Both the position numbers and the translations under genes were made by a program. A stretch of DNA of 64,000 bases from Streptomyces sp. NA02950. GTDB lineage: Bacteria > Actinomycetota > Actinomycetes > Streptomycetales > Streptomycetaceae. Below are positions 6,929 to 63,255 of this stretch, piece after piece (position 1 is the stretch's first letter; each line of letters opens with the position of its first letter). The notes under the pieces were generated by a model. That model was given only the letters and a program-made list of their open reading frames with translations, had not been told where the DNA came from and did no database searches. The stretch is taken from the NCBI RefSeq assembly GCF_013364155.1, contig NZ_CP054916.1, positions 3,592,501 to 3,656,500 of the forward strand, written 5' to 3'.

Positions 6929-6953
6929 CTAACTCAAGAACGGCCCTGCGGTG
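6929..6953. repeat. Right inverted repeat and right 8-bp target duplication
   Basis: 6929-6945 is the inverted partner of 1510-1526 (14/17). 6946-6953 is CTGCGGTG, the second copy of the flanking direct repeat. It runs into the tRNA gene, whose last base is at 6952. Confidence 0.7.
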
Positions 6954-7025
6954 GACCTGAGGGGATTTGAACCCCTGACCCCCTCGATGCGAACGAGGTG
7001 CGCTACCAGTCTGCGCCACAGGCCC
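6952..7025 (-). tRNA. tRNA-Ala (anticodon CGC)
   Basis: A 74-base cloverleaf on the minus strand: acceptor GGGCCTG/CAGGTCC, D arm GCGC/GCGC with the AGACTGGTA loop, anticodon arm CCTCG/CGAGG with loop TTCGCAT (anticodon CGC, reads GCG alanine codons), a five-base variable region, and T arm AGGGG/CCCCT with TTCAAAT. The discriminator is A, and CCA is not encoded (the next bases are CCG). The 3' end abuts the inserted element. Confidence 0.95.
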
Positions 7026-13120: not shown

Positions 13121-15886
13121 TCAGGGGGTCAGCGCCAGCTCGTCGTCGGTCTCCTTGTCCACAGCGCTCTCGCTGAACGCCCAGGGCAGCAGCTCCCCCT
13201 TGGCCCACATGTCGGTCTGATCCGTGTAGTGGGCGTGGTAGGCGTGGCCGGAGGCACCGGTGAGATTGATCCAGCGCGACTTGTCGAGGTCGTCCAGGTT
13301 GACGACCATCCGCATCGACGGGACCCAGGTGACGCCGTAGCCGCCCGCCGCGTTCCAGCCGGTGGCGTTGACCGCGGCCTCGCCGCCGCCGAGGTTCCAC
13401 GGGCCGCGGTTGAGCAGCCACTGCACCACACCGGGGCCCTCGGTGCCCAGGGTCTGGTTCTTCAGCGTCAGCCGGTGCAGCCGGCCCCAGCTCCAGCTGT
13501 TGATGTCCTTGCCCAGCTTGGCGGTGAGCTCCGAGCGCGCGTCCTTCATGGCGATCTTCAGCAGCTCGTCACGGTTGTGCGAACCGGGGTCGAGACGGGA
13601 GCCCGGCGACTTCCACCAGTCGTTGCGCGGCTCCTTGAGGAGCTTGCGCACCACCTCGTACCAGCGGTCGCCGCCGTCGGGCTGGGCCATGTCCGGATCG
13701 CGCAGGCCGCATTCGCGCACCAGCCGGGTGTTGCCGTCCAGGTCCTCGAGCGGGCCGGAGTCGTCGGCCGGGCGCACCCGCAGGCACTGTCCCTTGACCC
13801 GCAGCTCCTTGGGGAGCTTGTTGCCGAAGGCGAGCGTGAGGGTGTTGCGCCAGACGGCGTTGAAGTACGCGGCGGCCGCCGAGTCGGAGTCCTGGGTGTA
13901 GTCCCAGCTCTCCAGCAGCTTCTGGGCCTCTCGGACGTAGTTGTCCTTGATGTCGATCTTCAGCAGATAGGGCGTCAGCAGCTTGGCGATCTCACTGCTG
14001 TCGTCCATCTGCATGGACTGCATGTCCTCGGTGGAGACCTTGCCGCCGTCCTTGATCTTGGACTGGATCAGATCGCTGATGCGCTGGCTGCGCGCGCCGT
14101 AACCCCAGTCGTCCGTCAGCAGGTACGGGTACTTCTTCTTGTCGATGACGGCCTGGTTGGCGGTGACGATGTAGCCGCGCTTGGGGTTGAGCTCCCAGGG
14201 CAGTGCCGACTGCGGAATGTACTTGCGCCACTTGTAGCGCGAGTCCCAGCCGGGCGCCGGGTAGCGGCCGTCACCCTTGGCGCGCACCGGGATCTTGCCG
14301 GGCGCCTGGTAGCCGATGTTGCCCTTGGTGTCGGCGTAGATCAGGTTCTGCGAGGGGACGTCGAAGTCGCGGGCGGCCTTGCGGAAGTCGGTGAAGTTCC
14401 GGGCGGTGTTGAGCCCGAAGACGGCGTCCATGGAGTTGGACGGGGACAGCGCGGTCCACTTCAGCGCCACCGCGTAGCCGTCGCCGCGGTCGGGGGCCAC
14501 ATCGTCGGCGCCACGGCCGACCGGGGCGGCCTTCCCGACGTCGGCCAGCTCCTCGTCGCGGTCGGAGACGATCGGTCCGTTGTTGGTGGTGCGGACGGTG
14601 ATGGTGCGGCTCTTGCCGCCCGCGACCTTGATGGTCTCCTCACGGGTGGTGAAGGGTTGCTGCTTGCCGTCGTAGAGGTAGCTGTGCGAGGTGACCTTCT
14701 CCAGATAGAGGTCACTGACGTCGGCGCCCAGGTTGGTCATGCCCCAGCTGATGTTCTGGTTGTGACCTATGACGACGCCCGGCATGCCCGCGAAGGTGAA
14801 GCCCGCCGTGTCGTACGGGCAGGAGCTGCTGACCTGCTTGCAGTGCAGGCCCATCTGGTACCAGACGGACGGCAGCTGCGGGGCGAGGTGCGGGTCGTTG
14901 GCCAGCAGCGGCTTGCCGCTGGTCGTGTACCTGCCGTCGATGACCCAGGAGTTGGAGCCGATACCGGTGCCGTTCGGGCCGAGCAGCGCCGGGATCTTGT
15001 CCAGGGTCCTGGAGAGCGAGGACAGCCCGGTCTGGAGGCCCTGGGCGGTGCTGCCGGCGCCGGGAGCCGTACCGGTGCCCCCCGTACCGCTGGTGCCGCC
15101 CGTGGTGGTCGCCTTGGGGTCGAACTCCTCGGTGGCCTCGTCGAGCGCGCCGTCCTGGACGATCGGCTTGTTCCGGCCGTACGGGTACGACGGGTAGAGG
15201 TCCTCTATCTGGTCCGCGTCCAGCCTGCTGGACGCCAGGGCGCGGTCCACCTCGTCCTGCATGTTGCCGCGCAGGTCCCAGGCCATCGCCTTGAGCCAGG
15301 CGACAGAGTCGACCGGGGTCCACTTCTCCGGCTTGTAGCCCTCGTTCTTGAAGTCCAGGGCCGCGTACTCGACGGACAGTTCCTTGCCCGAGTGGTCCTT
15401 GAGGTAGGCGTTGACCCCGTCGGAGTAGGCCCGCAGATACTTCTTGGTGGCGGGCGACAGCTTGGTGTCGTACTCCTGCTTGGCCACCCGGTGCCAGCCC
15501 AGGGTGCGCAGGAACGCGTCGGTCTCCACCTGGCCGGATCCGAACATCTCCGAAAGCCGGCCGGACGTCATATGCCGGCGGACGTCCATCTCCCAGAAGC
15601 GGTCCTGGGCCTGGACGAACCCCTGGGCGCGGAACAGGTCCTCGGGAGTGCCGCCGTAGAGCTGCGGTATCCCGTAGCCGTCACGCTTGACCTGGACGGG
15701 CCCCGAGAGCCCCTTCAGCTGAAGCGATCCCGTGGTCTCCGGGAAGGAGGCACGCACGGTACTGATACTCCAGTACGTGCCGTAGCCGACGCCTCCGACG
15801 AGCAGCAGCACGACTGCGATCACGATCAGGCGGAGACGTCGGCTCTTCTTCTTTTTGGGAGAAGAGCCGGTTTTGTTGGCGGGCAT
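13121..15886 (-). CDS. Penicillin-acylase-family N-terminal nucleophile hydrolase
   Basis: A 921-residue secreted amidase of the penicillin G acylase/aculeacin acylase family, made as a precursor that cuts itself into alpha and beta chains. A Lys/Arg-rich start (KKKKSRRLRL) and one hydrophobic helix (LIVIAVVLLLVGGVGYGTYW) give a signal anchor. VKRDGYGIPQLYGGTPEDLFRAQGFVQAQDRFWEMD is the alpha-chain signature. The spacer ends before GIGSNSWVIDG, where Ser becomes the beta-chain N-terminal nucleophile. The ribosome site GAAGGA lies before the ATG at 15886. Physiological substrates may be acylated peptides, quorum signals or beta-lactams; sequence does not decide. The spacer is Gly/Thr-rich (GGTSGTGGTGTAPG). 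Confidence 0.92.
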   Translation of the reverse strand: MPANKTGSSPKKKKSRRLRLIVIAVVLLLVGGVGYGTYWSISTVRASFPETTGSLQLKGLSGPVQVKRDGYGIPQLYGGTPEDLFRAQGFVQAQDRFWEMDVRRHMTSGRLSEMFGSGQVETDAFLRTLGWHRVAKQEYDTKLSPATKKYLRAYSDGVNAYLKDHSGKELSVEYAALDFKNEGYKPEKWTPVDSVAWLKAMAWDLRGNMQDEVDRALASSRLDADQIEDLYPSYPYGRNKPIVQDGALDEATEEFDPKATTTGGTSGTGGTGTAPGAGSTAQGLQTGLSSLSRTLDKIPALLGPNGTGIGSNSWVIDGRYTTSGKPLLANDPHLAPQLPSVWYQMGLHCKQVSSSCPYDTAGFTFAGMPGVVIGHNQNISWGMTNLGADVSDLYLEKVTSHSYLYDGKQQPFTTREETIKVAGGKSRTITVRTTNNGPIVSDRDEELADVGKAAPVGRGADDVAPDRGDGYAVALKWTALSPSNSMDAVFGLNTARNFTDFRKAARDFDVPSQNLIYADTKGNIGYQAPGKIPVRAKGDGRYPAPGWDSRYKWRKYIPQSALPWELNPKRGYIVTANQAVIDKKKYPYLLTDDWGYGARSQRISDLIQSKIKDGGKVSTEDMQSMQMDDSSEIAKLLTPYLLKIDIKDNYVREAQKLLESWDYTQDSDSAAAAYFNAVWRNTLTLAFGNKLPKELRVKGQCLRVRPADDSGPLEDLDGNTRLVRECGLRDPDMAQPDGGDRWYEVVRKLLKEPRNDWWKSPGSRLDPGSHNRDELLKIAMKDARSELTAKLGKDINSWSWGRLHRLTLKNQTLGTEGPGVVQWLLNRGPWNLGGGEAAVNATGWNAAGGYGVTWVPSMRMVVNLDDLDKSRWINLTGASGHAYHAHYTDQTDMWAKGELLPWAFSESAVDKETDDELALTP

Positions 15887-16139
15887 CGCTGTCCTTCGAG
15901 GGGCAGGGTGATCCTGGAGTGCTGGAGCAACCATAGGCGCAGCGCTGTCTCCGCCCCTACGCGGAGTCATGACTGACGCCCGGCACCGGCCACCGGGCCG
16001 GGTCATTACAGCCCGGCCCACCACCCTGACCGGAGGCGCGCGTCAAGAACCCGTAAAATGTTAGGCAAGGCAACGAAGTTCCGGTCGGCCGGGTGCCGCT
16101 CACGCGATCCCCGCCGCTCCTGCGAGAAAGGTTCGGCCC

Positions 16140-52612: not shown

Positions 52613-53125
52613 TCAGTTGACTTTGGGACTGCGACGCTCGATGAGGATGACGTCGCGCCAGCGGCCGTGATGGCAGCCGACGCGTTCACGAGTGCCGATG
52701 ACCCGGAAGCCCGCATGCGCATGTAGGGCGAGGCTGGGGGTGTTCTCTGGGAAGATGCCGGATTGGATGGTCCAGATACCAGCAGCTTCTGTGGATGCGA
52801 TCAGCGCATTGATCATTGCGCGACCGAGGCCCTGCCCGCGTGCATTCGGCGCGACATAGATCGAGTGTTCCACCACCCCGGCGTAGACGGGGCGGGAAGA
52901 CACCCGGCTGGCGGCAATCCAGCCCACGACGCGTTTGTTAGCGAGCGCGACGAAGCGGTGCTCCGGCAGCTTCGAGGCGTTGAAGGCCTCCCAGGTAGGG
53001 GCCAATGTCTCAAAGGTGGCATCACCTTCGTCGATGCCTGCCTGGTAGATCGTCAGGACGTCGCGGGCATGCACCTCGGTGAGTGGCGTGATTAGGGCAG
53101 GGCCGACATCGCGGGCCACGGACAC
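52613..53125 (-). CDS. GNAT acetyltransferase, phosphinothricin-acetyltransferase-like
   Basis: A 170-residue N-acetyltransferase of the PAT/Bar/MddA family. ITPLTEVHARDVLTIYQAGIDEGDATFETLAPTWEAFNASKLPEHRFVAL is the family N-terminus (the IDEG/ATFET acceptor region). VEHSIYVAPNARGQGLGRAMINALIASTEAAGIWTIQSGIFPENTPSLALHAHAGFRVIGTRERVG is the acetyl-CoA core. Members acetylate phosphinothricin, methionine sulfone/sulfoximine or similar amino acids. It is divergent from the OPT-transporter gene and may be a passenger of the island rather than part of the peptide pathway. Confidence 0.85.
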   Translation of the reverse strand: MSVARDVGPALITPLTEVHARDVLTIYQAGIDEGDATFETLAPTWEAFNASKLPEHRFVALANKRVVGWIAASRVSSRPVYAGVVEHSIYVAPNARGQGLGRAMINALIASTEAAGIWTIQSGIFPENTPSLALHAHAGFRVIGTRERVGCHHGRWRDVILIERRSPKVN

Positions 53126-53331: not shown

Positions 53332-53395
53332 TTGACGCTCAACTCGAACCGCCCGTACCTTCATGCACATGCTGAATCGGTAGATCTCGATTCAG
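53332..53395 (+). promoter_or_regulatory. Putative promoter and operator of the peptide cluster
   Basis: TTGACG (53332-53337) and TACCTT (53356-53361) are 18 bases apart, a vegetative-sigma-like promoter. Just downstream lies the inverted repeat CTGAATCG / CGATTCAG (53372-53379, 53388-53395), which could be an operator or leader hairpin. The rest of 53126-53432 has no gene. Confidence 0.5.
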
Positions 53396-53432: not shown

Positions 53433-55181
53433 GTGCTCGGCTTGACCCACAGTCAGGCGCGACGCGCCGCATCCCCTGCCGCAGACTCCCTGGAGGTTTC
53501 CGAGACAGCGGACGGAGCCCACTTAGCAGGGCCGCCAGGTGAGCCTTCGCGGCACTCGTTCACCTCCACGGTCGTGATCGGCTGCGCCATCGGCACCGTG
53601 CTGTGCGTATTGAACGTGTTGGTGCTGTTCAAGACCGGCTCATCCTTTGGCGGCTCGGCGCTGGTGGCACTGCTGGGCGCCGCCTTGTTGCGAGTGACCC
53701 GACGGCTGGACTGGCAGCACCTGTTCGTCGTCTTCTCCCTCGCGTCCAGCGGGTACGTGGCTACGGCCGCTCTGGATACCGGAATCGGTACGGTGATGCT
53801 CCGTACGGGCAGCGTGCCGAGTTGGATCCTGCTGACGGCGTTGGCCGTCGGCGCGAACCTGTGCGGTGTGTTGCTGGGGATTCTGGTCGCTCGGAGTTTT
53901 GTATTCGCGGAGAGACTGCCGTACCCGACACTGCAGCCTGCCGTGACCCTCATGAATACGCTGACGCAGAGTGGCGACGAGCAGACGAGGAGCGTGCGTC
54001 GAGTTCTGCCGGTCACTGCTGCTGCTGGCGGAGCCGTGGCCCTGGTTGCTGAGATGTTGGGGCGCAGCAGCACCCCAGCCCTGCCCGGACTGCCGTCCTA
54101 CCTGGTGCTGTCCCTGTCCCCGCTGCTGGTGGGGCTGGGAATGCTGATCGGTCCGCGGGCCTGCGGCTGGATGGTGCTCGGCTCGCTGTACACCGTCGTG
54201 CTGTGGGTGGTTCAACAGGGTGGAGCCACAACGGAGCCCTCCTACGACCACCACCTGGCCTATCCATGGGTGCTGGCCTGCGGGGTCGGGATCATCCTGG
54301 GCTATTCACTGATGTCGTTGGTGAAGGTGCGCGGACCACTCGCCCATGCGCTGTCGGCAGCGAGCCGCCCTCTGTTCACCTCAGCCGCAAGGCGTCGATG
54401 GACGCTGGGCTCGCTCGGCGCGGCTGCAGCAGCTCTCATCGTGATAGCCGTGGTCCGAGGACCGTCCGCACTCGAACCGGTCGCCCTGGTTGCACTGGGA
54501 GCGGTACTGGTCCTGCTGTTCAGCCTCTTCCTCAACCGTGCCGGCGGCGAGGTCGGCATAGCGCCGCTGGCACCCACGCTCTACCTGAGCGTTACCCTGC
54601 TGGCAGCGCTTGGTCTGGGATCGACCACCGCAACCCTGGGCGCCGCGACCATCTGCAGCGCGGCCGTCGGCTCGGTCTACTACACCTATTCGGTGAAAGT
54701 GGCCGACAGCTCACCTGCTGAAACGCCCGTTCCTGCGCGACGCATTCTGTGGACCCAGATGACCGGCGGCCTGATCGGGGCCCTCCTTGGCATCAGCGTC
54801 ATCGTCTTGCTCGCCAGGCTCCACGTGATCGGTGATGAGGGATTCCCGGCACCAGTCGCCCAGTCGCTGGGGTTCATCGACTCGACCGTGCGCGATACGA
54901 ACGGCTACTCGGGCACTGTCGGGATGGCACTCGCCGTCGGAGGCCCTATCGGTATCGCGCTGACCTTCGTCGGCAAGGCCATGCCGACGATGCTGGGCCT
55001 GGGCATTCTTCTACCGCCCGCCTACGCGCTGACCATCGGGCTGGGCGGACTACTCCGCAGCGGTGTACTGCGTAACCATCCCGGCCGCAAGACCGGAATG
55101 GAGACTGCTGCCTCCGGCCTGATCATAGGCGAGGGCGTTGTCATGGTGATCGTCTTGATCACCCGCGCGTTTCTGAACTGA
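53433..55181 (+). CDS. OPT-family transporter of the peptide cluster
   Basis: A 582-residue protein with about 14-16 membrane helices matching the oligopeptide transporter (OPT) superfamily, whose members move peptides, modified peptides and metal chelates with protons. Typical parts are FAERLPYPTLQPAVTLMNTLTQSGDEQ, PSYLVLSLSPLLVGLGMLIGPRACGWMVLGSL and AVGGPIGIALTFVGKAMPTMLGLGILLPPAYALTIGLGGLLR. A soluble N-terminus of about 45 residues precedes the first helix. GGGGAGAGG fits a TTG at 53442 better than the GTG at 53433. It is first in line before the peptide gene. It might export the product, or import it bound to metal. Confidence 0.85.
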   Translation: MLGLTHSQARRAASPAADSLEVSETADGAHLAGPPGEPSRHSFTSTVVIGCAIGTVLCVLNVLVLFKTGSSFGGSALVALLGAALLRVTRRLDWQHLFVVFSLASSGYVATAALDTGIGTVMLRTGSVPSWILLTALAVGANLCGVLLGILVARSFVFAERLPYPTLQPAVTLMNTLTQSGDEQTRSVRRVLPVTAAAGGAVALVAEMLGRSSTPALPGLPSYLVLSLSPLLVGLGMLIGPRACGWMVLGSLYTVVLWVVQQGGATTEPSYDHHLAYPWVLACGVGIILGYSLMSLVKVRGPLAHALSAASRPLFTSAARRRWTLGSLGAAAAALIVIAVVRGPSALEPVALVALGAVLVLLFSLFLNRAGGEVGIAPLAPTLYLSVTLLAALGLGSTTATLGAATICSAAVGSVYYTYSVKVADSSPAETPVPARRILWTQMTGGLIGALLGISVIVLLARLHVIGDEGFPAPVAQSLGFIDSTVRDTNGYSGTVGMALAVGGPIGIALTFVGKAMPTMLGLGILLPPAYALTIGLGGLLRSGVLRNHPGRKTGMETAASGLIIGEGVVMVIVLITRAFLN

Positions 55182-55209
55182 CTGCTTCGGCGAGCAACAT
55201 CCACGATCT

Positions 55210-55233
55210 TCCCCCGCCGAACTCGGCGGGGGA
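55210..55233 (+). terminator. Terminator/attenuator between OPT gene and peptide gene
   Basis: TCCCCCGCCG (55210-55219) pairs perfectly with CGGCGGGGGA (55224-55233) around AACT. It sits 45 bases before the peptide gene and would partly uncouple it from the transporter transcript. Confidence 0.75.
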
Positions 55234-55278
55234 GCGAGGGCACGGCAGAGGTCCTTACAGGAAGGAGGTGCTGTGACC

Positions 55279-55413
55279 ATGATGGAGATCGCGAACATCG
55301 AGAATGCCGAGGTCGAGGAGAATAAGCCCGACTGCTGCACCGCACTGCGCGGACGCAAGAACCTCGACGTGCAGGCCAATGTAATGGTGGCCGACCCCGA
55401 GGGGTGCGATTAA
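55279..55413 (+). CDS. Candidate RiPP precursor peptide (44 residues)
   Basis: A short gene just upstream of a radical SAM enzyme. AAGGAGGT (55262-55269) lies nine bases before the ATG at 55279; a GTG at 55273 is also in frame but too close. The N-terminal 17 residues (MMEIANIENAEVEENKP) are acidic and helical, like a leader. The C-terminal part starts DCCTALRGRKNLDV, with vicinal Cys19-Cys20, and ends ADPEGCD with Cys43 next to last. Residues 24-27 (RGRK) are basic. No family is recognised. The position, small size, strong ribosome site and neighbouring modification enzymes support a precursor; the leader/core boundary is not visible. Confidence 0.75.
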   Translation: MMEIANIENAEVEENKPDCCTALRGRKNLDVQANVMVADPEGCD

Positions 55414-55441
55414 GACCAGCACAATCAGCAAGAGCACTGCC

Positions 55442-55459
55442 TGACCGGCGAACCGGTCA
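55442..55459 (+). terminator. Weak hairpin between peptide gene and rSAM gene
   Basis: TGACCGG (55442-55448) pairs with CCGGTCA (55453-55459) around CGAA. Such a partial terminator after a precursor gene usually gives more precursor mRNA than enzyme mRNA. Confidence 0.5.
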
Positions 55460-55528
55460 TCACTCCTGCCGTGCCCTCACCCTATTGCGCTACGAGCCAT
55501 ACCGGTTCAGTCGAATAGGAGAAGTGCC

Positions 55529-57046
55529 ATGCAAGTCAGTGCGAACACCGTGGAGTTCCGGGTTGAGCTCCCACCTGATCTCGTAGGCCCCGAATACCTG
55601 GACAAGGATGGCAAGGTCTCCCTCCTCGCCAATGCCGTGTCCGGGAGCATGGATCTGGTCAGCCGGAGCGAACTGTCCTCGCTCGAACGCCTGCGAGTCG
55701 GCCGCACCAGCGAAGAGGACCGTGACATCCTGACCGCCTTCCGGGAACGCGGCTACGTCTATGAGGACGCCGCCGCCGAGCAGAAGGCCTACCGCGACTT
55801 GGTGGACGGCTATTTCCGCACGATCCAGGAAGCGCCGTTCCAGTTCATGTTCATCCCCTCCTTCGTGTGCAACCTCGCCTGCTCCTACTGCTTCGAAGGC
55901 GAACTGACCACGAAAAGCCCGCAGATGAGCGAAGAAATGATCGAGGCGGCCTTCGACTCGATCCCGATGATCCAAGAGCTCCACGAGAATTCCGGACCGC
56001 CCTACATCACCCTGTTCGGCGGCGAGCCGTTGCTGGACACCGCCTATCAGCGCTGGGCTGTCGAGGAAATCCTCAAGCGTGCCTACGACCGGGGCTACCC
56101 CTCCACGGCGATCACCAACGGGGTGGACCTGGACAAGTACGTGCCGCTGCTTAAGCAGTACGGCTGTGAAGAGGTCCAGGTCAGTCTCGACGGCACACCC
56201 TCGGTGCACGACCAGCGCCGAGTCTTCCGCAACGGCCGTCCGACCTTCCATCGCATCGAGCGCGGCATCGATGCCGCGTTGGACGCTGGCGTCCGGGTCC
56301 TGATCCGCTTGTTGGTCGACCGTGACAGCGTGGACGACATGCCAAATTTTGCCGAGATGGCCCAGGAAAAGGGCTGGATCGACAACCCGTTGGTCACGCT
56401 CTTCTACGGATTCACGAAGCAGACGACGTTCCTGTACGTCACTCCCGACCACCCCGAGGAAAGGCGCCGCACCATGGTGCGCGGCGATGTCAAACCGGGT
56501 CTGAGTGAAGCGTTCTTCGAGATGCTGCGCGCCAACCCCTTGGTCGACGACATGCTCAAGCCGGACCCGGCGCGCATTCGCTCGGCTGTCATGGAGGGTG
56601 ACCGGATCCATCCCAACCTTCAGGGCTGCAGCGCGGGGACAAGCGTGATCGCCTTCGACCCCAACGGCAAGCTCTACGGCTGCCCGGAGACCGTCGGCCG
56701 TCCTCAGCACGCCTGCGGCAGCTACGCCCCTGAGTTCCGATACGCCCGCGCCTACCGCGAGCCCTGGCGGCATCGCCACGTCGACACCGTGGAGATGTGC
56801 CGCCAGTGCAACGTCAAGCTGTTCTGCGGTGGTGGAGGCTGCCCGATCAAGGCGTGGGCTGCCAGCGGGGGCAACTTCGACACCTGTTACTGCCCCAAGG
56901 TCGAGACCATCAAGTCCAACGTAGAGCGCGAATTGGCCTACCTACTGCCGATGGCCCTGCGCCGCAGGAACACCAACACCGTGACGAAGGAAAAGGGAAC
57001 ATGGCAGGAAATGAGCCAGGCGGGTTCGTTCCCCTGGATGAGCTGA
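55529..57046 (+). CDS. Radical SAM/SPASM peptide-modifying enzyme
   Basis: A 505-residue radical SAM enzyme. The [4Fe-4S] cluster motif is CNLACSYC (Cys114, Cys118, Cys121), followed by LFGGEPLL for SAM binding and QVSLDGTPSVHD. The C-terminal 140 residues carry many Cys in SPASM order (GCSAG, YGCPET, HACGS, MCRQCNVKLFCGGGGCP, TCYCPK), which bind two auxiliary clusters. SPASM enzymes typically form C-C, C-S or other cross-links in peptides. The N-terminal about 100 residues may help recognise the leader. Ribosome site AATAGGAGAAG precedes the ATG at 55529. The last 46 bases overlap the methyltransferase gene. Confidence 0.92.
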   Translation: MQVSANTVEFRVELPPDLVGPEYLDKDGKVSLLANAVSGSMDLVSRSELSSLERLRVGRTSEEDRDILTAFRERGYVYEDAAAEQKAYRDLVDGYFRTIQEAPFQFMFIPSFVCNLACSYCFEGELTTKSPQMSEEMIEAAFDSIPMIQELHENSGPPYITLFGGEPLLDTAYQRWAVEEILKRAYDRGYPSTAITNGVDLDKYVPLLKQYGCEEVQVSLDGTPSVHDQRRVFRNGRPTFHRIERGIDAALDAGVRVLIRLLVDRDSVDDMPNFAEMAQEKGWIDNPLVTLFYGFTKQTTFLYVTPDHPEERRRTMVRGDVKPGLSEAFFEMLRANPLVDDMLKPDPARIRSAVMEGDRIHPNLQGCSAGTSVIAFDPNGKLYGCPETVGRPQHACGSYAPEFRYARAYREPWRHRHVDTVEMCRQCNVKLFCGGGGCPIKAWAASGGNFDTCYCPKVETIKSNVERELAYLLPMALRRRNTNTVTKEKGTWQEMSQAGSFPWMS

Positions 57047-57834
57047 CCGGTCCGCGGCCCACGCTGGCGGTCGAGACCGCCGTACCCGCGGCGGTTCCGA
57101 TTGAGATCACCGTCAAGGAGCGATACGACACGCTTGCGCAGGCGGGAACGAGCAACCTGTGCTGCGCTCCGCAAGCCATCTACACCCCCGACCAGCTGGA
57201 CGGGATCCCGCAGTGGGTTCTCGACCTGTCCAGCGGCTGCGGCGCACCGCTCGGCGCAATCGACCTGCGCCCGGGACAAGCAGTGGCAGACTTCGGCTGC
57301 GGCGCGGGCCTGGATCTCATTCTCGCGGCCCGGCGGGTAGGCCCGGGCGGGCGCGTTATCGGTATCGACGGCTCGCTGAGTATGGTGCGCACCGCCCGCC
57401 GCGCCGCCAAAGAGACAGGTCACACCAACATCGACGTGAGGGTGGGGGACATCCGGCGCCCGCCGCTGCGCCCGTCCAGCGTCGACGTTCTGCTGAGCAA
57501 CTGCGTTCTGGGCATGTTCCCGGACAAAGCACAGGTGCTGGAAGCGATCTCCGAGGCGCTGCGTCCCGGTGGCTACGCCGTGATCTCCGACGTCGTCTAC
57601 CTGGATGAGGTACCCGAGGGAGCGGTCACCACCGGCGAGGCTGACGCGGACGACTACGCACGCTGTGTGGTGGGAATGACCACGGATCAGTACCGGGAGA
57701 TGGTCGTTTCGGCAGGTTTCGATCATGTCGACATTCGAGATGACGGCTCGGTCGCCTACCGCGACGGCGCACGGGTGACCAGCGCAACCATCGTCGCCTA
57801 CCGTGGCCAGCCGCCCGAGACACCATGCTGCTGA
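57001..57834 (+). CDS. ArsM-type SAM methyltransferase
   Basis: A 277-residue class I methyltransferase. VADFGCGAGLDLILAARRVGPGGRVIGIDGS is the SAM-binding motif, and SNCVLGMFPDKAQVL matches the SNCVINL.PDK segment of arsenite methyltransferases. The Cys positions used by ArsM for As(III) have counterparts: Cys54-Cys55 (SNLCCAP), Cys80 (SSGCGAP) and Cys168 (SNC). It also ends in Cys-Cys. It may methylate peptide sulfur or a bound metalloid. No arsenic resistance genes are visible, which argues against a simple detoxification role. It starts inside the end of the rSAM gene and overlaps the next gene by 10 bases. Confidence 0.87.
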   Translation: MAGNEPGGFVPLDELTGPRPTLAVETAVPAAVPIEITVKERYDTLAQAGTSNLCCAPQAIYTPDQLDGIPQWVLDLSSGCGAPLGAIDLRPGQAVADFGCGAGLDLILAARRVGPGGRVIGIDGSLSMVRTARRAAKETGHTNIDVRVGDIRRPPLRPSSVDVLLSNCVLGMFPDKAQVLEAISEALRPGGYAVISDVVYLDEVPEGAVTTGEADADDYARCVVGMTTDQYREMVVSAGFDHVDIRDDGSVAYRDGARVTSATIVAYRGQPPETPCC

Positions 57835-59225
57835 GCCAGGGCCTGCGGCGGCCGTTCACCGAGGCCGGGCTGCGTGCCGACGAATACGCCGAGATACGCC
57901 GGGAACGCAGCCGCCTGCTCACAGCCGTATGGCGTGGCGGCACCTTGGAGAGCGTCAACCGAGCTACCGACGAGGGCGGGTGCGTGCGGGTGCTCAGCCC
58001 GCGCGGCTCGTCCTTCGTCTCCTTCACCGACGGCACGCCCGTGTTCGCGCTGCGTCAGGCCCGGCAGCACGCCGTCGGCCTGGGGGCAGCGCCCATGCGG
58101 CCAGCGGACCGGACACCGGCCCGCGGCTCCTACGCGCCGCAGGTGCGAGAACCGGTGGAAGCCCTCCCGCTGGACGAACAGCTGGCCTTGATGGCCAGGT
58201 GGCACGCCCAGGCTCTCAGAGCCCACCCGGCCGTCGTCGGCGCCCTCGTCTACTACCGCCATGCGACATCCAACGTGGAGGTGGTCACCAGCGATGGCGG
58301 CGAGGTCAGCTGGACCCGAGCCGACCTGACGCTGCAGATCACCATCTATGCGGGCGGGAGCATCTATGCGGGCGGGAGCGAGGAGCGAGGCGTCGGCTCG
58401 GTCTCGATTGGCAGCCACGGAGACTTCGCAGCAGTACGTGATCTGGAGCAACGTGTGGAGGAGGCCGCCGCCACAGCCGTAGATCTCATCCATGCACCGC
58501 CACTTGAGGCAGGCACGTACGATGTGGTGTGTGACGGCCCGCTTGCTGCTACATGGGCTCATGAAACGGTCGGGCACCTGGCGGAGGCCGACCATCAGCA
58601 AGGGGCGAGAAAGACCATCGCAGACCTCCGTGCGGGCCGCAGGCTCGGTATGGAGGAGCTGACCGTCGTCGACCGCCCGGGGCCTTCAACAGCGCGTGGG
58701 TATGTGCCAGTGGATGACGAATGCACCACCGGCAGGGAGATCACCTTGATCGAACGCGGGCGGGTGGGCAGCCGCCCCCGCCTGCACGACCTGAGCACCG
58801 CGACCGCCTTCCAGGAAGCGCCCACCGGCAATGCCCGCGCCCTGAACTACCGCCACCCGCCGTTGCCGCGGCTGCGCACGACCTGCGTCGAGGCAGGCAC
58901 CAGCACGCTGCAGGAGATGATCTCCGGCGTAAGCAATGGCCTGCTCGCGGAGGGACTCTTCGGAGGCCAGACGAACAGGTCCGGGTTCGCCTTCCTGCCC
59001 GCTTCCTGCCGCTTGATCCGCGACGGCGAAACAAGGGGCCTGGTCAAGGGCGCGGTACTGACCGGCGACGTACTGGACACCTTCGCCACCGTGGACGCCG
59101 TCGGCCGCGACGTATCGCGCGGTGACACGTCCGCCAGCTGCGGCAAACAGGGTCAGACACCGCTTCCGGTCTCCTGCTGGGCACCCGCCCTGCGCATGAG
59201 AGGGGTGCATGTTGACGTCGGCTGA
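57825..59225 (+). CDS. TldD-like metalloprotease subunit
   Basis: A 466-residue protein of the TldD/PmbA (U62) family. TldD carries the zinc site HETVGH (His246-Glu247...His251) in TWAHETVGHLAEADH; SVSIGSHGDF and GYVPVDDECTTGREITLIERG are other family regions. Together with TldE it forms a heterodimeric protease that, in the microcin B17 and related pathways, threads and trims unfolded modified peptides. Residues about 175-186 contain a duplicated IYAGGS from an 18-bp tandem repeat. It overlaps the methyltransferase gene by 10 bases and the TldE gene by 17. Confidence 0.88.
   Translation: MLLSQGLRRPFTEAGLRADEYAEIRRERSRLLTAVWRGGTLESVNRATDEGGCVRVLSPRGSSFVSFTDGTPVFALRQARQHAVGLGAAPMRPADRTPARGSYAPQVREPVEALPLDEQLALMARWHAQALRAHPAVVGALVYYRHATSNVEVVTSDGGEVSWTRADLTLQITIYAGGSIYAGGSEERGVGSVSIGSHGDFAAVRDLEQRVEEAAATAVDLIHAPPLEAGTYDVVCDGPLAATWAHETVGHLAEADHQQGARKTIADLRAGRRLGMEELTVVDRPGPSTARGYVPVDDECTTGREITLIERGRVGSRPRLHDLSTATAFQEAPTGNARALNYRHPPLPRLRTTCVEAGTSTLQEMISGVSNGLLAEGLFGGQTNRSGFAFLPASCRLIRDGETRGLVKGAVLTGDVLDTFATVDAVGRDVSRGDTSASCGKQGQTPLPVSCWAPALRMRGVHVDVG
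58344..58379. repeat. Exact 18-bp in-frame tandem duplication in tldD
   Basis: ATCTATGCGGGCGGGAGC is present twice head to tail, adding one IYAGGS unit to the protein without breaking the frame. Confidence 0.95.
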
Positions 59226-60585
59226 AACCCCTGAGGACCTTGGCGCCACGGTCGCAGCGATCTCCGCGGAGGCCTCTGCCCGTACCGCAGAGTGGCACCT
59301 GCTCCTGCTCGATCACCAGCAGACCACCACCGAACTTTCCAACGGGCAGGTCGACGCTTCCCGTTCGTCCGGGGAGACCACCGCCTACCTGCGACTGATG
59401 GTCGACGGGCGGATCGGCACTGCCACCAGCAGTCGCCCCGACCGAGTCGAGGAACTCGTCCAGGACGCCTGGGACTGCGCCCGCTGCGGGCCCACCGCTG
59501 ACCACAGCTTCGCTCCTTCGTCCAAGCCAGACACGCCTGATCGCACCTCTGGCCTCTTGCCTGACGATGCGGTGCTCGCCGGTACCCGCGACTTGACTCA
59601 CCAGGTAGCTGAACTGCAGCAGCACTCGAAACTTCTGCTGCACGGCACGATCACGCGCACGGACGAGGCGGTGTACATCGCGGGCCCGGTCGGCGTGGTG
59701 CACGACAGGCTGGGCCGCTGGGGCGTATCCGCTGTGGCCGAGAGCCCTATTGTGGAGAATCTGCAGTTGACTTGGCACACCTGGACCCGCCGGCCCCAGC
59801 TGCCCGAGGAGGTCGCCGAGTGGACCGGCACAGCTGGGGCCTGGCAAGACCTGCCGGCTCTGCCGTGCCCTCCCGGACTGCGGGAAGTACTCCTGGCCCC
59901 TAACGCGGTACACGCCCTGCTCTCGCCCTTGATGCGCTCACTCGGCGGCCCGGCCTCCAACGGGCGTTCATTCCTGCCCGCCGAACTCGGTGACAGGCTC
60001 CTGGACAAGCGTTTAACTGTCACCGACGGGTCTTGCACAGGCGGGCAGCGGAACCGCACGGCCGACGGGTTACCACATCCGGCGGTCGATGACGAGGGCG
60101 TAGCCTGTCGCCCCCTGGTGCTGATCGACGCCGGGGGACCGATTCACCGGTACCACACCTCCCACAGCGCGGCGGCCGTTGGTGCAACACCGACGGGGCA
60201 CGGCTTTCGCGGCAATGCCCTGCGCCGCAAGCCCCTGCAGCCCATCTCCGCTGTCCTCAACAATGTCCGCGTGCATGCTGACGCGACGCTCACCACCTCA
60301 TGGCATGAACTGCTGGCCTCCATCGAGAACGGGATCGTGGTGGAGTCCTTGTTCGGAGCCGAACAGAAGGGGCGGCTGTCTCCTGTTGTCGAGGGGGGCG
60401 TCCAACAAGGGTTCGTCGTTCAACACGGCCGGGTCGTGGCGCGGCTGCGGCGCACAAGTTTTCGCATGGACCTGCGCGAGGCTCTGGGCGCGGACCTTGC
60501 TGGGGTGTCAACGCAGAGCTGGCCGGTGAGCAAGGTGTGGACCGGCAAGATGCCGTTCCTCCTTGCCCGTTCGCTCCAGGACTGA
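59209..60585 (+). CDS. TldE/PmbA-like protease subunit
   Basis: A 458-residue partner of TldD. It shares the U62 layout (LLLLDHQQTTTELSNGQVDASRSSGETTAYLRLMVDGRIGTATSS at the N-terminus, and SIENGIVVESLFGAEQKGRLSPVVEGGVQQGFVVQHGRVVARLRRTSFRMDLREAL near the C-terminus) but lacks an HExxxH motif, as expected for the TldE role. The ribosome site GAGAGGGG lies just before the ATG at 59209, inside the tldD end. The neighbouring order tldD-tldE and overlap imply an equimolar complex that probably removes the leader of the modified peptide. Confidence 0.86.
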   Translation: MLTSAETPEDLGATVAAISAEASARTAEWHLLLLDHQQTTTELSNGQVDASRSSGETTAYLRLMVDGRIGTATSSRPDRVEELVQDAWDCARCGPTADHSFAPSSKPDTPDRTSGLLPDDAVLAGTRDLTHQVAELQQHSKLLLHGTITRTDEAVYIAGPVGVVHDRLGRWGVSAVAESPIVENLQLTWHTWTRRPQLPEEVAEWTGTAGAWQDLPALPCPPGLREVLLAPNAVHALLSPLMRSLGGPASNGRSFLPAELGDRLLDKRLTVTDGSCTGGQRNRTADGLPHPAVDDEGVACRPLVLIDAGGPIHRYHTSHSAAAVGATPTGHGFRGNALRRKPLQPISAVLNNVRVHADATLTTSWHELLASIENGIVVESLFGAEQKGRLSPVVEGGVQQGFVVQHGRVVARLRRTSFRMDLREALGADLAGVSTQSWPVSKVWTGKMPFLLARSLQD

Positions 60586-61849
60586 AGGAGGGATCCACAC
60601 GTACGACGCGATCATCGTCGGCGGTCGGGTGGCTGGGTCAGTCACCGCGACCTTGCTGGCGCAACGCAAGTGGCGGGTGCTGCTGCTCGACCGGGCTCCC
60701 TTGCCCAGTCCCGCGGTGTCCACACACTTCTTCGGGCCCTCCGTGCTTGCTTTCCTCGAGGAGCTGGGCATCCTGGACAAGGTGCGCGCCACCGGGGCGC
60801 CACCTCTGGCGCACTGGCATCTCCACCTGGGCGATAACTACTACGGCGGGCCGATGCTGCCGCGCGCCCAGCACCCGTACAACCTGTGCGTACGCCGCGA
60901 CTCCCTGGACGACATTCTGCTGCGCCGTGCCGCTGAAGAGCCCCTGGTCGAGGTACGCGACCGCACCGCCGTGCGTACTCTGCTGCGCCAAGGTGACCAG
61001 GTCACCGGCGTGGCAGGGGCTGGCTGGGAGGAGAAGGCACGTGTGGTCATCGGCGCCGACGGACGCGGCTCGCTGGTCGCCCAGCAACTCGGGGCCGAGC
61101 CGCTGTTCGACGCCGGTGCCCTGCGTTGCACTTTCCACGCCTACTGGCACGATGTGCACGCCCTCCCGGAGCCTTCCTTGGAGCTGTGGCACGACGACGG
61201 TGACGTGATCCAGATGGGCCCCTGTGATGGCGACCAGTGGGTGGTGATGGTCTCGGTCCCCCCTGAACGATTCAAGCAGATGCGCGCAGACGGTGGAGCC
61301 GGATACGAGCAGCGGCTACGCGCCATACCTGCCATGCGAGCCCGGCTGCGCACCGCCGAACGCGTTTCCCAGGTCTTCGCGGGCAAGAATCTGCGCAACT
61401 TCCATCGGCCTGCAGCCGGAGCAGGCTGGCGGCTGGTAGGTGATGCCCTGTGCCACAAGGACCCGCTGTTCGGTGCCGGCATCGCTGATGCCGTTTCCGG
61501 CTCCCGGGCCCTGGCTCAGACCCTGGACGACGCCCTGAGCGGCCGAGTCAGTTGGGAACACAGCGCTAGTCAGTACATGGAGGAGACAGAAACCAAGATC
61601 GTGAATCGCATGAGACAGGGACTGGAGGACTTGACCATTCAGCCTCCCGCACCGTCCCAACGCGCCTGGATCCGCAGCGCTTTGGGGCACCCAGGCCTCG
61701 CCTTCGAACTGGCCGCGCACTGCTCGCGCCTGTTCGAAGCACTGCCTGCTGACCGGCAGGCATTCTGGCAGCGTGCGGCAGACTCCACCGCCGAAGTCCT
61801 AGGCCTGCCCCAAGCCGCACGCCTGGCGCAACAGGAGCAGGCCCGGTGA
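60563..61849 (+). CDS. Class A flavoprotein oxidoreductase; start codon unusual
   Basis: About 415-428 residues. YDAIIVGGRVAGSVTATLLAQRKWRVLLLDRA is the FAD-binding motif (GGRVAG in place of GxGxxG). ARVVIGADGRGSLVAQQLG is the DG motif of class A monooxygenases, and GWRLVGDALCHKDPLFGAGIADAVSGSRALAQTL the GD motif. It may hydroxylate, dehydrogenate or reduce the peptide or an intermediate. GAAGGAGGG (60584-60592) sits right before the first folded residues, but no ATG, GTG or TTG follows it; an ACG at 60599 has ideal spacing. The TTG at 60563 would overlap tldE by 23 bases. Its stop overlaps the M3 peptidase start (GTGA). Confidence 0.82.
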   Translation: MPVRSRTEGGIHTYDAIIVGGRVAGSVTATLLAQRKWRVLLLDRAPLPSPAVSTHFFGPSVLAFLEELGILDKVRATGAPPLAHWHLHLGDNYYGGPMLPRAQHPYNLCVRRDSLDDILLRRAAEEPLVEVRDRTAVRTLLRQGDQVTGVAGAGWEEKARVVIGADGRGSLVAQQLGAEPLFDAGALRCTFHAYWHDVHALPEPSLELWHDDGDVIQMGPCDGDQWVVMVSVPPERFKQMRADGGAGYEQRLRAIPAMRARLRTAERVSQVFAGKNLRNFHRPAAGAGWRLVGDALCHKDPLFGAGIADAVSGSRALAQTLDDALSGRVSWEHSASQYMEETETKIVNRMRQGLEDLTIQPPAPSQRAWIRSALGHPGLAFELAAHCSRLFEALPADRQAFWQRAADSTAEVLGLPQAARLAQQEQAR

Positions 61850-63255
61850 CCGGCCCGGCGCTCCCCGACTACCTTGCACCGCATGCCGAGGACCTCGTGG
61901 CCTTGCAGCGGGCAGTCGCCCATAATCGCTGGCTCGCGGCCACAGGGCGCGACGCATACGCCACCACGGACACGGCGGAACGCTACCCGCACCTGTCGAA
62001 CGGTTCTCTGGTCTCGCTCGCGCTGGATCACGGAGATCTCTCCCTCGCTCACGAACTGTCGCTGTGGTACTTCCGAACGATGCTGGCCCGGCCCACCCAG
62101 GAACTGCGACAAGGACAGCGTGAGGTCACCGTCGAGGTGAATGGCCGCTCGCTCAGCCACGCCGAACTCTTGGCCGCCCGGAGGACTGCGCAGTCCACGG
62201 CCGAGCACGATGCCCTCGGCCGGGCCGTGACCGAGGCGAGCAGCAAGCTCGATCAGTACCGCATGCGGTGGCTGGAGCAGCATGCTCAGGCCGTCCATCG
62301 GCTCGGATTCGTATCCCACGCACATCTGGTACGCGCGTTGCACCCGGACGCCGACCGGTGGGTGACTGACGCTGAGAGTTGGCTGGAGCGCACCCGCGAA
62401 GACTTCCTTACCCGGTGGCGCCGTTGGCAGGATCAGGACAGCCTGGCGGCGCCACGCCTCTTGGACACCAGAATCGTCGCCGAGGGCGCAGGTACAATCG
62501 ATGACCCCCTCGGCGTCGTCACCGCCACCGTGAAGGCATGGGGCCTGTCTGCGGCCCTGGACCGCATCACCGTCGACAGCGAGGCACGAGCCGGGAAGCT
62601 CAGCTTCTCCTTCTGCTCCCCGGTGAATCCGCCCCACGATGTACGGGTGTCGGTCACTCCTGGCCGTTCGCTGCGCGATCTGCCCCCACTGCTGCATGAG
62701 TTCGGCCACGCCCTGCATTTCACTTCTGGCGTGGAGCACGCCTGGGAGCTTTGGCGGATCCCGACTGCACTGACCGAGGCGGTCGGCTTCGCAGTGGAGC
62801 ATGTCGTGCATCAGCCCCAATGGCAGCAACAGCATCTGGGCGCTTCGCTGGCTCCCGAGGCCGCTGACCGGCTGCGGTTCGGGCGGGAGGCTGTACGCCG
62901 TCTGATCGCCACCAGCCTGTGCTACGAGATGGCGGTACATGACGGGCACCCTGCGCCCAGAGACCTGTACGAGCAGATGTTCGGCCGCGAGTTCGGCATC
63001 AGCGTCAGCGGCGCTGATGCATTCAATCGGCTCCAGGCATACCTGGAGGGGCAGCCCTGCTATCCGCTCGTGTACTACGAGGCCTATCGCCTGCGTGACC
63101 CGCTGTGGCAGTACTTGGAACAACAGGGAGGGCCTCAATGGTGGGCTTCCCCCTCGGCACACACCACCCTGGTGGACCTGTTCGCTGCCATCGGGCGTAC
63201 TGCACCGGCCGAATGGTCTTCTTCGGCCCTCGCACCCGCGATGTCAGATATGTGA
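61846..63255 (+). CDS. M3-like zinc metallopeptidase
   Basis: A 469-residue gluzincin. LLHEFGHALHFTSG gives the HExxH zinc site (His284, Glu285, His288), and IPTALTEAVGF places the third ligand Glu about 23 residues later (Glu311), the spacing seen in M3 oligopeptidases. The N-terminal half is mostly helical, as in thimet/oligopeptidase F enzymes, but shorter than usual (about 600). GTG at 61846 overlaps the flavoprotein stop. In the cluster it may finish trimming the peptide after TldDE. Its 3' end overlaps the opposing M1 gene by 12 bases. Confidence 0.83.
   Translation: MTGPALPDYLAPHAEDLVALQRAVAHNRWLAATGRDAYATTDTAERYPHLSNGSLVSLALDHGDLSLAHELSLWYFRTMLARPTQELRQGQREVTVEVNGRSLSHAELLAARRTAQSTAEHDALGRAVTEASSKLDQYRMRWLEQHAQAVHRLGFVSHAHLVRALHPDADRWVTDAESWLERTREDFLTRWRRWQDQDSLAAPRLLDTRIVAEGAGTIDDPLGVVTATVKAWGLSAALDRITVDSEARAGKLSFSFCSPVNPPHDVRVSVTPGRSLRDLPPLLHEFGHALHFTSGVEHAWELWRIPTALTEAVGFAVEHVVHQPQWQQQHLGASLAPEAADRLRFGREAVRRLIATSLCYEMAVHDGHPAPRDLYEQMFGREFGISVSGADAFNRLQAYLEGQPCYPLVYYEAYRLRDPLWQYLEQQGGPQWWASPSAHTTLVDLFAAIGRTAPAEWSSSALAPAMSDM

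Follow-up and report, generated by a model that had tools for sequence, protein, structure and literature searches.

An eight-gene peptide operon beside arsenic genes in Streptomyces sp. NA02950 as a possible arsenic-responsive RiPP pathway

We describe an operon of eight genes in Streptomyces sp. NA02950 that almost certainly encodes a pathway for a ribosomally synthesized and post-translationally modified peptide (RiPP), and that may, in a reading we regard as evenly balanced, be an arsenic-responsive pathway plausibly yielding an organoarsenic peptide or amino acid. The operon lies in a stretch of 64,000 nucleotides (NZ_CP054916.1, 3,592,501-3,656,500), referred to below as the window, and all coordinates count from window position 1. 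It joins a short precursor with three Cys residues to a radical S-adenosylmethionine (SAM) maturase and an ArsM-type methyltransferase. To judge from the DNA, the operon is quite probably under the control of arsenic; that arsenic enters the product could go either way.

The operon and its conservation

An earlier note, made from the letters of the window, had placed eight genes of one strand at 53433..63255, and all eight are present:

53433..55181, + strand: OPT-family transporter (PF03169, 4.6e-23; in 8/8 close loci)
55279..55413, + strand: precursor peptide of 44 amino acids with three Cys, DCC...GCD (27 aligned sequences; in 8/8 close loci)
55529..57046, + strand: radical SAM/SPASM peptide maturase with a predicted RRE-like N-terminal domain
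57001..57834, + strand: ArsM-type SAM methyltransferase with predicted As-binding Cys 80, 168 and 222 (the four best PDB matches are arsenic methyltransferases; 4kw7, E 4e-17)
57825..59225, + strand: TldD-like metalloprotease subunit with HETVGH (PF19289, PF19290, PF01523; alignment to 5nj5)
59209..60585, + strand: TldE-like partner subunit, without HExxxH (PF19289, 3.9e-22)
60599..61849, + strand: FAD-dependent protein of oxygenase/halogenase fold, with a probable ACG start (PF01494; QhpG profile; PDB 3e1t)
61846..63255, + strand: short M3-like zinc peptidase with HEFGH (TIGR02290, 3.4e-7, below cut-off)

The families named in the earlier note for the OPT transporter (PF03169), the radical SAM enzyme (Radical_SAM), the TldD/PmbA pair and the flavoprotein (FAD_binding_3) were found again. 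Its M3 label is weak (no Pfam M3 match at 0.01, no PDB sequence match at 0.001, and a TIGR02290 score of 29.6 bits under a cut-off of 561.7), yet the HE[FM]GH motif is kept in 9/9 copies. Overlaps had been reported at every junction from the methyltransferase to this gene, and they hold for methyltransferase and TldD (10 b), TldD and TldE (17 b), and flavoprotein and M3-like peptidase (4 b), but probably not for TldE and flavoprotein. At the latter junction seven Streptosporangiaceae loci have the flavoprotein ATG directly before a conserved Tyr, and both the window (60599) and the other Streptomyces locus, L002 (about 15108), carry ACG at that site with a good ribosome site upstream. Translation probably starts at ACG 60599, leaving a 13-b gap after TldE, so that the two genes would not overlap. 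The reading frames of the radical SAM enzyme and the methyltransferase overlap by 46 b. The peptide gene does precede the radical SAM gene, as claimed, but a spacer of 115 b, rather than immediate adjacency, lies between them; another of 97 b separates the OPT gene from the peptide gene. Co-transcription of the genes is presumed.

Conservation of the gene set outside the strain was checked, as the earlier note had proposed, with the radical SAM protein as query. The protein search (E<=1e-20) returned 56 proteins, 22 of them at 57-100% identity and the remainder at <=38%; the alignment of close sequences holds 20 of these 22, with P0013 and the partial P0023 excluded. Loci came from a profile scan of genome contigs in which the best 80 of 146 relatives were used, giving 79 distinct loci, 8 close and 71 distant; the close set is without the relatives in Amycolatopsis tolypomycina (P0009) and Paenibacillus beijingensis (P0024). 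The close loci span three genera (one Streptomyces, two Sphaerisporangium and five Microbispora), and all eight genes occur in every one of them with order and strand unchanged. The P. beijingensis protein is a relative across phyla, from Bacillota, at 57% identity to the window enzyme.

At E<=1e-80 the radical SAM gene is rare, being found in 1/150 congeners, 1/391 genomes of the order and 1/396 of the phylum, each time the own genome (the congener and phylum scans scored at most three candidates per genome in the rows shown); in the family of L003 8/297 genomes are positive. The lower G+C content noted earlier is confirmed, with 66.3% in the cluster and 71.0% upstream. Because the cluster is rare and lower in G+C, the data fit horizontal spread. 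A plasmid origin was rejected, the sole plasmid matches being partial and 28-31% identical (3 records), and so was integration beside a tRNA gene, the single one in the window, tRNA-Ala (cgc) at 6950-7025, lying far from the cluster and none occurring in L089, the locus record of the own genome that reaches past the window.

The precursor is best read from the ATG at 55279 as MMEIANIENAEVEENKPDCCTALRGRKNLDVQANVMVADPEGCD. An alignment of 27 precursors (all 25 sequences of a profile search, the window and L003) contains an invariant D-C-C-T-A-[LM]-R-G-R block; GC stands close to the C-terminus in 25/27, one sequence having CG instead and one lacking that Cys, and no aromatic residue is conserved among the 27. 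The small precursor gene and its adjacent modifying enzyme are conserved together in 8/8 close loci. Since the precursor is so strongly conserved, its sequence suggests one conserved product.

Neither the peptide nor its putative maturase reaches the cut-off of a curated family. The peptide has zero matches in NCBIfam and Pfam. For the radical SAM protein the 25 best of 72 NCBIfam matches all lie far below cut-off, among them CefB (127.7 bits for a cut-off of 600), TIGR04463 (112.9/525), PapB (103.7/340), SCIFF (94/425) and the mycofactocin enzyme (57.3/265), and on these curated scores assignment to a known radical SAM RiPP class was rejected. The earlier reading, a RiPP-type cluster of undescribed combination that no characterised class claims, is thereby supported at the level of sequence.

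The assignment of a SPASM domain draws on a conserved C-terminal Cys pattern and on the presence of two SPASM enzymes, CteB and anSME, among the fold matches. CteB, a thioether-forming maturase, is the best Foldseek match of the model, in a search where absence from the match list excludes no family, and also the nearest PDB sequence. The N-terminal domain, modelled as part of the whole enzyme, has the predicted order bbbaaa with predicted local distance difference test (pLDDT) means over 10 residues of 69-92, and the model aligns with CteB over 4-480 and with TigE over 1-477, N-terminus included. The predicted structure resembles that of a RiPP maturase with a putative RRE-like N-terminus.

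The METHYLTRANSFERASE (57001..57834) is of ArsM type by its sequence. Its Cys80, Cys168 and Cys222 align with Cys72, Cys174 and Cys224 of CmArsM, which are As-binding sites according to the part of the source drawn on here (PMC3877260). All 9 close copies keep the three residues, and among 67 distant copies they are present in 65, 67 and 66, respectively. The arsenic site is intact, and methylation of As(III) is predicted.

As to the remaining enzymes, HExxxH is present in 9/9 TldD and 0/9 TldE proteins, and the distal C-terminal Cys of TldD is found in the window protein by alignment to 5nj5. The best NCBIfam profile of the flavoprotein is QhpG, at 69.9 bits for a cut-off of 240, and its nearest PDB sequence is the halogenase 3e1t. 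A halogenase was considered and rejected: the fold family fits, but WxWxIP, which we take to be the halogenase motif, was not seen by eye. The OPT protein is presumed to export or import the product.

Several of these features recall a peptide-derived redox cofactor or metal binder of the type of pyrroloquinoline quinone (PQQ) or mycofactocin, with arsenic incidental. Mycofactocin and PQQ arise from a short conserved precursor through a radical SAM/SPASM enzyme and proteolytic release of a small product, and QhpG acts on a peptide matured by a radical SAM enzyme. The highly conserved precursor, the several peptidases and a flavoprotein with QhpG as best profile all agree with such a pathway. 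It is nonetheless highly improbable: aromatic residues are not conserved in the precursor, the mycofactocin profile is not reached, and no dehydrogenase was named among the family-tested flanking genes, the list of shared genes being partly tested.

Putative regulatory site and arsenic genes around the operon

The earlier note had overlooked the arsenic context of the operon; it listed neither a putative ArsR-type operator nor the genes on either side (pepN, arsR, cobW and an arsN1-like gene):

53372..53395: putative ArsR-type operator, a perfect palindrome with 8-base arms, CTGAATCG-8-CGATTCAG
52613..53125, - strand: ArsN1-like GNAT acetyltransferase (arsinothricin/phosphinothricin type), divergent (ArsN1a, 125.5 bits)
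63244..65985 (3' part inside the window), - strand: PepN aminopeptidase (M1), convergent (TIGR02412, 801 bits, above cut-off)
about 65922-66302, + strand: ArsR regulator (NF033788, 95.5 bits; cut-off 55)
about 66660-67811 (L089 7161-8312), + strand: CobW/COG0523 GTPase

The palindrome, CTGAATCGGTAGATCTCGATTCAG (53372-53395), ends 37 b ahead of the OPT gene. Its exact core occurs at one site in the 9.77 Mb own genome, with nine further sites at 2 mismatches, and an equivalent palindrome is found at the same position of the OPT promoter, after an invariant CTTGAC, in 10/10 aligned loci. A seven-site Streptosporangiaceae model scores the window site highest of 64 kb (18.4, runner-up 14.1) and, in 21.5 kb, that of L002 (19.2, runner-up 12.4). 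These scores assume a GC-rich background, so that 178 matches exceed 13 in the 1.04 Mb of AT-rich distant loci; after mononucleotide shuffling of the window there were 0 matches in 640 kb. Weaker related sites were seen 1) upstream of cobW in 4 genomes, 2) in 4 genomes on the side of a MIP-like gene, some 1 kb ahead of the OPT site (a further genome has it shifted), and 3) where the flavoprotein gene of an ars operon faces arsR in 3 genomes, with a low-scoring one in the own genome.

Neighbouring genes were counted in ten genomes, the own and nine others. The pepN and arsR genes adjoin the operon in 10/10, cobW is found in 9/10 and an ArsC-like gene in 7/10. The flanking ArsR has a CVC[DE] motif in all ten, and CVC is, we assume, the mark of ArsR repressors responding to As(III). 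In the own genome the M3-like gene is followed by pepN, arsR, cobW, two ArsC-like reductase genes, a further arsR, acr3, a second arsN1-like gene and a third arsR. This acr3, whose product scores above cut-off, is one of two copies and lies 8.2 kb past the operon. Within 25 kb acr3 occurs in 6/10 genomes, in two of them as fragments (G541, G542), and in five of the nine others it lies 14-22 kb from the radical SAM gene.

The ArsN1-like gene at 52613..53125 is the best of 17 ArsN1a matches in the own genome, has a counterpart at the same position in L002, and encodes a protein whose nearest PDB entry is a phosphinothricin acetyltransferase (5dwm); it is a candidate self-resistance gene. The top two of the 17 matches flank the operon, one per side, within about 12 kb, and a full-length ArsN1-like gene is near the operon in 7/10 genomes. 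A remnant of arsN with one stop was found at G1046:C1:5612212-5612484; with broken arsN and acr3 fragments, resistance genes seem to be decaying in some strains.

Other genes near the operon were noted in single loci. Downstream of cobW in L091 (7297-8559) one frame joins ArsM and ArsN1-type acetyltransferase domains and so carries a second ArsM. In L003 and L004 a gene for a MIP-family channel, below its cut-off, lies upstream of the OPT gene. In the own genome, past the window, the ars island also holds genes for a protein with a HEPN/Toprim N-terminal domain (L089 13616-14857) and a Hypoth_Ymh protein (15039-15908), possibly defence genes.

Distant relatives and competing readings

The 71 distant loci carry radical SAM proteins 28-34% identical to that of the window and belong, by their record titles, to Bacillota, Bacteroidota, Spirochaetota, Myxococcota and others, mostly as metagenome-assembled genomes. 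An ArsM-type gene lies within 3 kb in 67/71, and a short peptide ending CC...GC[HDE] is found around the start of the radical SAM gene in 67/71, a pattern with 0 occurrences in 477,619 control bases of the same loci. A gene resembling thioredoxin reductase is near in 45/71 and an OPT gene in 3/71; among 50 neighbour proteins chosen by hand from 127 listed, 22 matched thioredoxin reductase. Three distant radical SAM proteins and three methyltransferases fell below every NCBIfam cut-off shown, and two distant peptides had no match. The loci L010-L080 thus present a cassette spanning phyla, in which an ArsM-type enzyme, a CC...GCHD peptide and a radical SAM/SPASM enzyme are often joined by a thioredoxin or its reductase.

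From the gene set and its conservation, the Cys triad, the operator and the ArsR, ArsN and acr3 neighbours, all read directly in the loci, we infer every chemical step of the following pathway. ArsR from the gene just downstream would repress the OPT promoter by occupying its 24-base palindrome, and would leave this site on binding As(III). The RRE-like domain of the radical SAM/SPASM enzyme may hold the 44-residue precursor, whose Cys residues (CC and the C-terminal GC) would bind As(III) or be the site of modification, while the enzyme itself would form a carbon bond in the peptide, either C-As or C-S. The ArsM-type enzyme would then methylate arsenic, and after methylation the flavoprotein would oxidise the product. 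Trimming by the peptidases (TldD/TldE, PepN and the M3-like protein) would leave a small arsenical, either a peptide or an amino acid, for the OPT protein to carry across the membrane, and the ArsN1-like acetyltransferase would confer self-protection. In its strongest form, a carbon-arsenic bond made on a three-Cys ribosomal peptide by the radical SAM/SPASM enzyme, followed by ArsM methylation and release by peptidases, this would be the first arsenic-containing class of RiPPs, and the actinomycete operon an elaborate branch of the family spanning phyla; we put this form forward tentatively, its chances being somewhat short of even.

A number of observations weigh against an arsenical pathway. 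The methyltransferase scores under the ArsM cut-offs (NF008823, 172.5 bits for 263; NF040538 equivalog, 84.6 for 500), and the ArsN1-like proteins also fall short of theirs; the one at 52613..53125, with 125.5 bits, is below the NF040503 cut-off of 170, this being still its top-scoring family. Three genomes have no full-length ArsN1-like gene nearby, G543 and G1046 containing a fragment and G539 a copy 46 kb away; cobW is missing near L002; and acr3 is absent in 2/10 genomes and on a separate contig in 2/10. The flanking arsR gene of the own genome has no operator copy (<=2 mismatches) in front of it, and a strict sigma-70 scan gave no promoter match, the promoter hexamers being assigned by eye. 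The Streptosporangiaceae loci are close relatives and hence dependent samples. Finally, ars genes are rare in the 71 distant loci, where searches with single sequences, in loci many of which are short, found Acr3-like genes in 2, ArsC-like in 1, ArsR-like in 1 and ArsN in 0, so that the chemistry of the trio may not need arsenic in every branch.

This last observation lends itself to a different reading, in which the operon makes an ordinary Cys-modified radical SAM RiPP: the radical SAM enzyme forms a thioether or a different carbon bond in the peptide, the ArsM-fold enzyme has been recruited to methylate one of the peptide's thiols or carbons, and the ars genes are mere neighbours on a resistance island that at most lend a regulator. 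That CteB leads both the fold and the sequence matches speaks for it, as do the many distant loci (the majority) in which a similar trio is found and ars genes are lacking, and the variation of the ars genes near the operon among genomes. We consider it unlikely, though the strongest of the alternatives: the full As-binding Cys triad, which a repurposed methyltransferase would not need, is kept in both families, and operator and ArsR are constant across loci.

Alternatively, the system could serve detoxification, the three-Cys peptide binding As(III) and then being locked or methylated, cut and pumped out, without any designed bioactive product. The three precursor Cys, the arsenic-type regulator with its ars neighbours and an OPT gene in the same operon would all be expected of it. 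Four peptidase genes and a flavoprotein nevertheless seem excessive for a chelator, a new peptide for each arsenic atom would be costly beside Acr3, and an ArsN1-like gene would better suit an arsenical resembling an amino acid; we therefore regard detoxification as distinctly improbable.

Relation to known systems and significance

A close parallel to the proposed arsenical pathway is arsQML, the As(III)-inducible operon for arsinothricin in Burkholderia gladioli, which comprises genes for a transporter, ArsM and a radical SAM enzyme; the passages drawn on predict that ArsL uses inorganic arsenite and SAM (PMC8552651). The two systems share the plan of transporter, ArsM-type enzyme and radical SAM enzyme, and ArsN1 is the resistance type by its NCBIfam name. 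No peptide figures in those passages on arsQML, whereas the present operon has a precursor, peptidases, a flavoprotein and a radical SAM enzyme with SPASM and putative RRE-like domains, and its methyltransferase is far from the ArsM equivalog (84.6/500). Bisenarsan is made by bsn, an arsenic-regulated actinomycete cluster described, in the portion of the source used, as having polyketide synthase genes and no SAM-dependent enzymes, and the radical SAM enzyme of arsenosugar synthesis (ArsM/ArsS) adenosylates arsenic (PMC12159101). Both yield organoarsenic natural products, and bsn shares arsenic regulation; in the same portion neither is described as peptide-derived.

Among peptide pathways the nearest profiles are those of SCIFF/ranthipeptide maturases (CteB, PapB) and of CefB/TIGR04463, likewise radical SAM/SPASM enzymes acting on Cys-containing peptides; the scores are far below cut-off, however, and the present precursor fits no family. 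To our knowledge, the definitions of SCIFF/ranthipeptide and CefB/TIGR04463 systems include no ArsM partner. The PQQ and mycofactocin systems differ by the points given above, the missing conserved aromatic residue and the unmet mycofactocin profile.

Few bacterial organoarsenic products are named in the passages drawn on, namely methylarsenicals, arsenosugars, arsinothricin and bisenarsan (PMC12159101). Among the listed matches of an open-access literature search, covering titles and the openings of abstracts and thus no proof of absence, there was neither a RiPP with an arsenic methyltransferase nor an arsenic-containing RiPP. We know of no organoarsenic product derived from a ribosomal peptide. 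If the proposed pathway is correct, an arsenical templated by a peptide would represent a new route to carbon-arsenic bonds and could supply antibiotics or signals of a new origin. The wider family that combines an ArsM-type enzyme, a Cys-tail peptide and a radical SAM enzyme, with loci in Bacteroidota, Spirochaetota, Bacillota and Myxococcota, would then become testable for a chemistry of arsenic or of another soft element.

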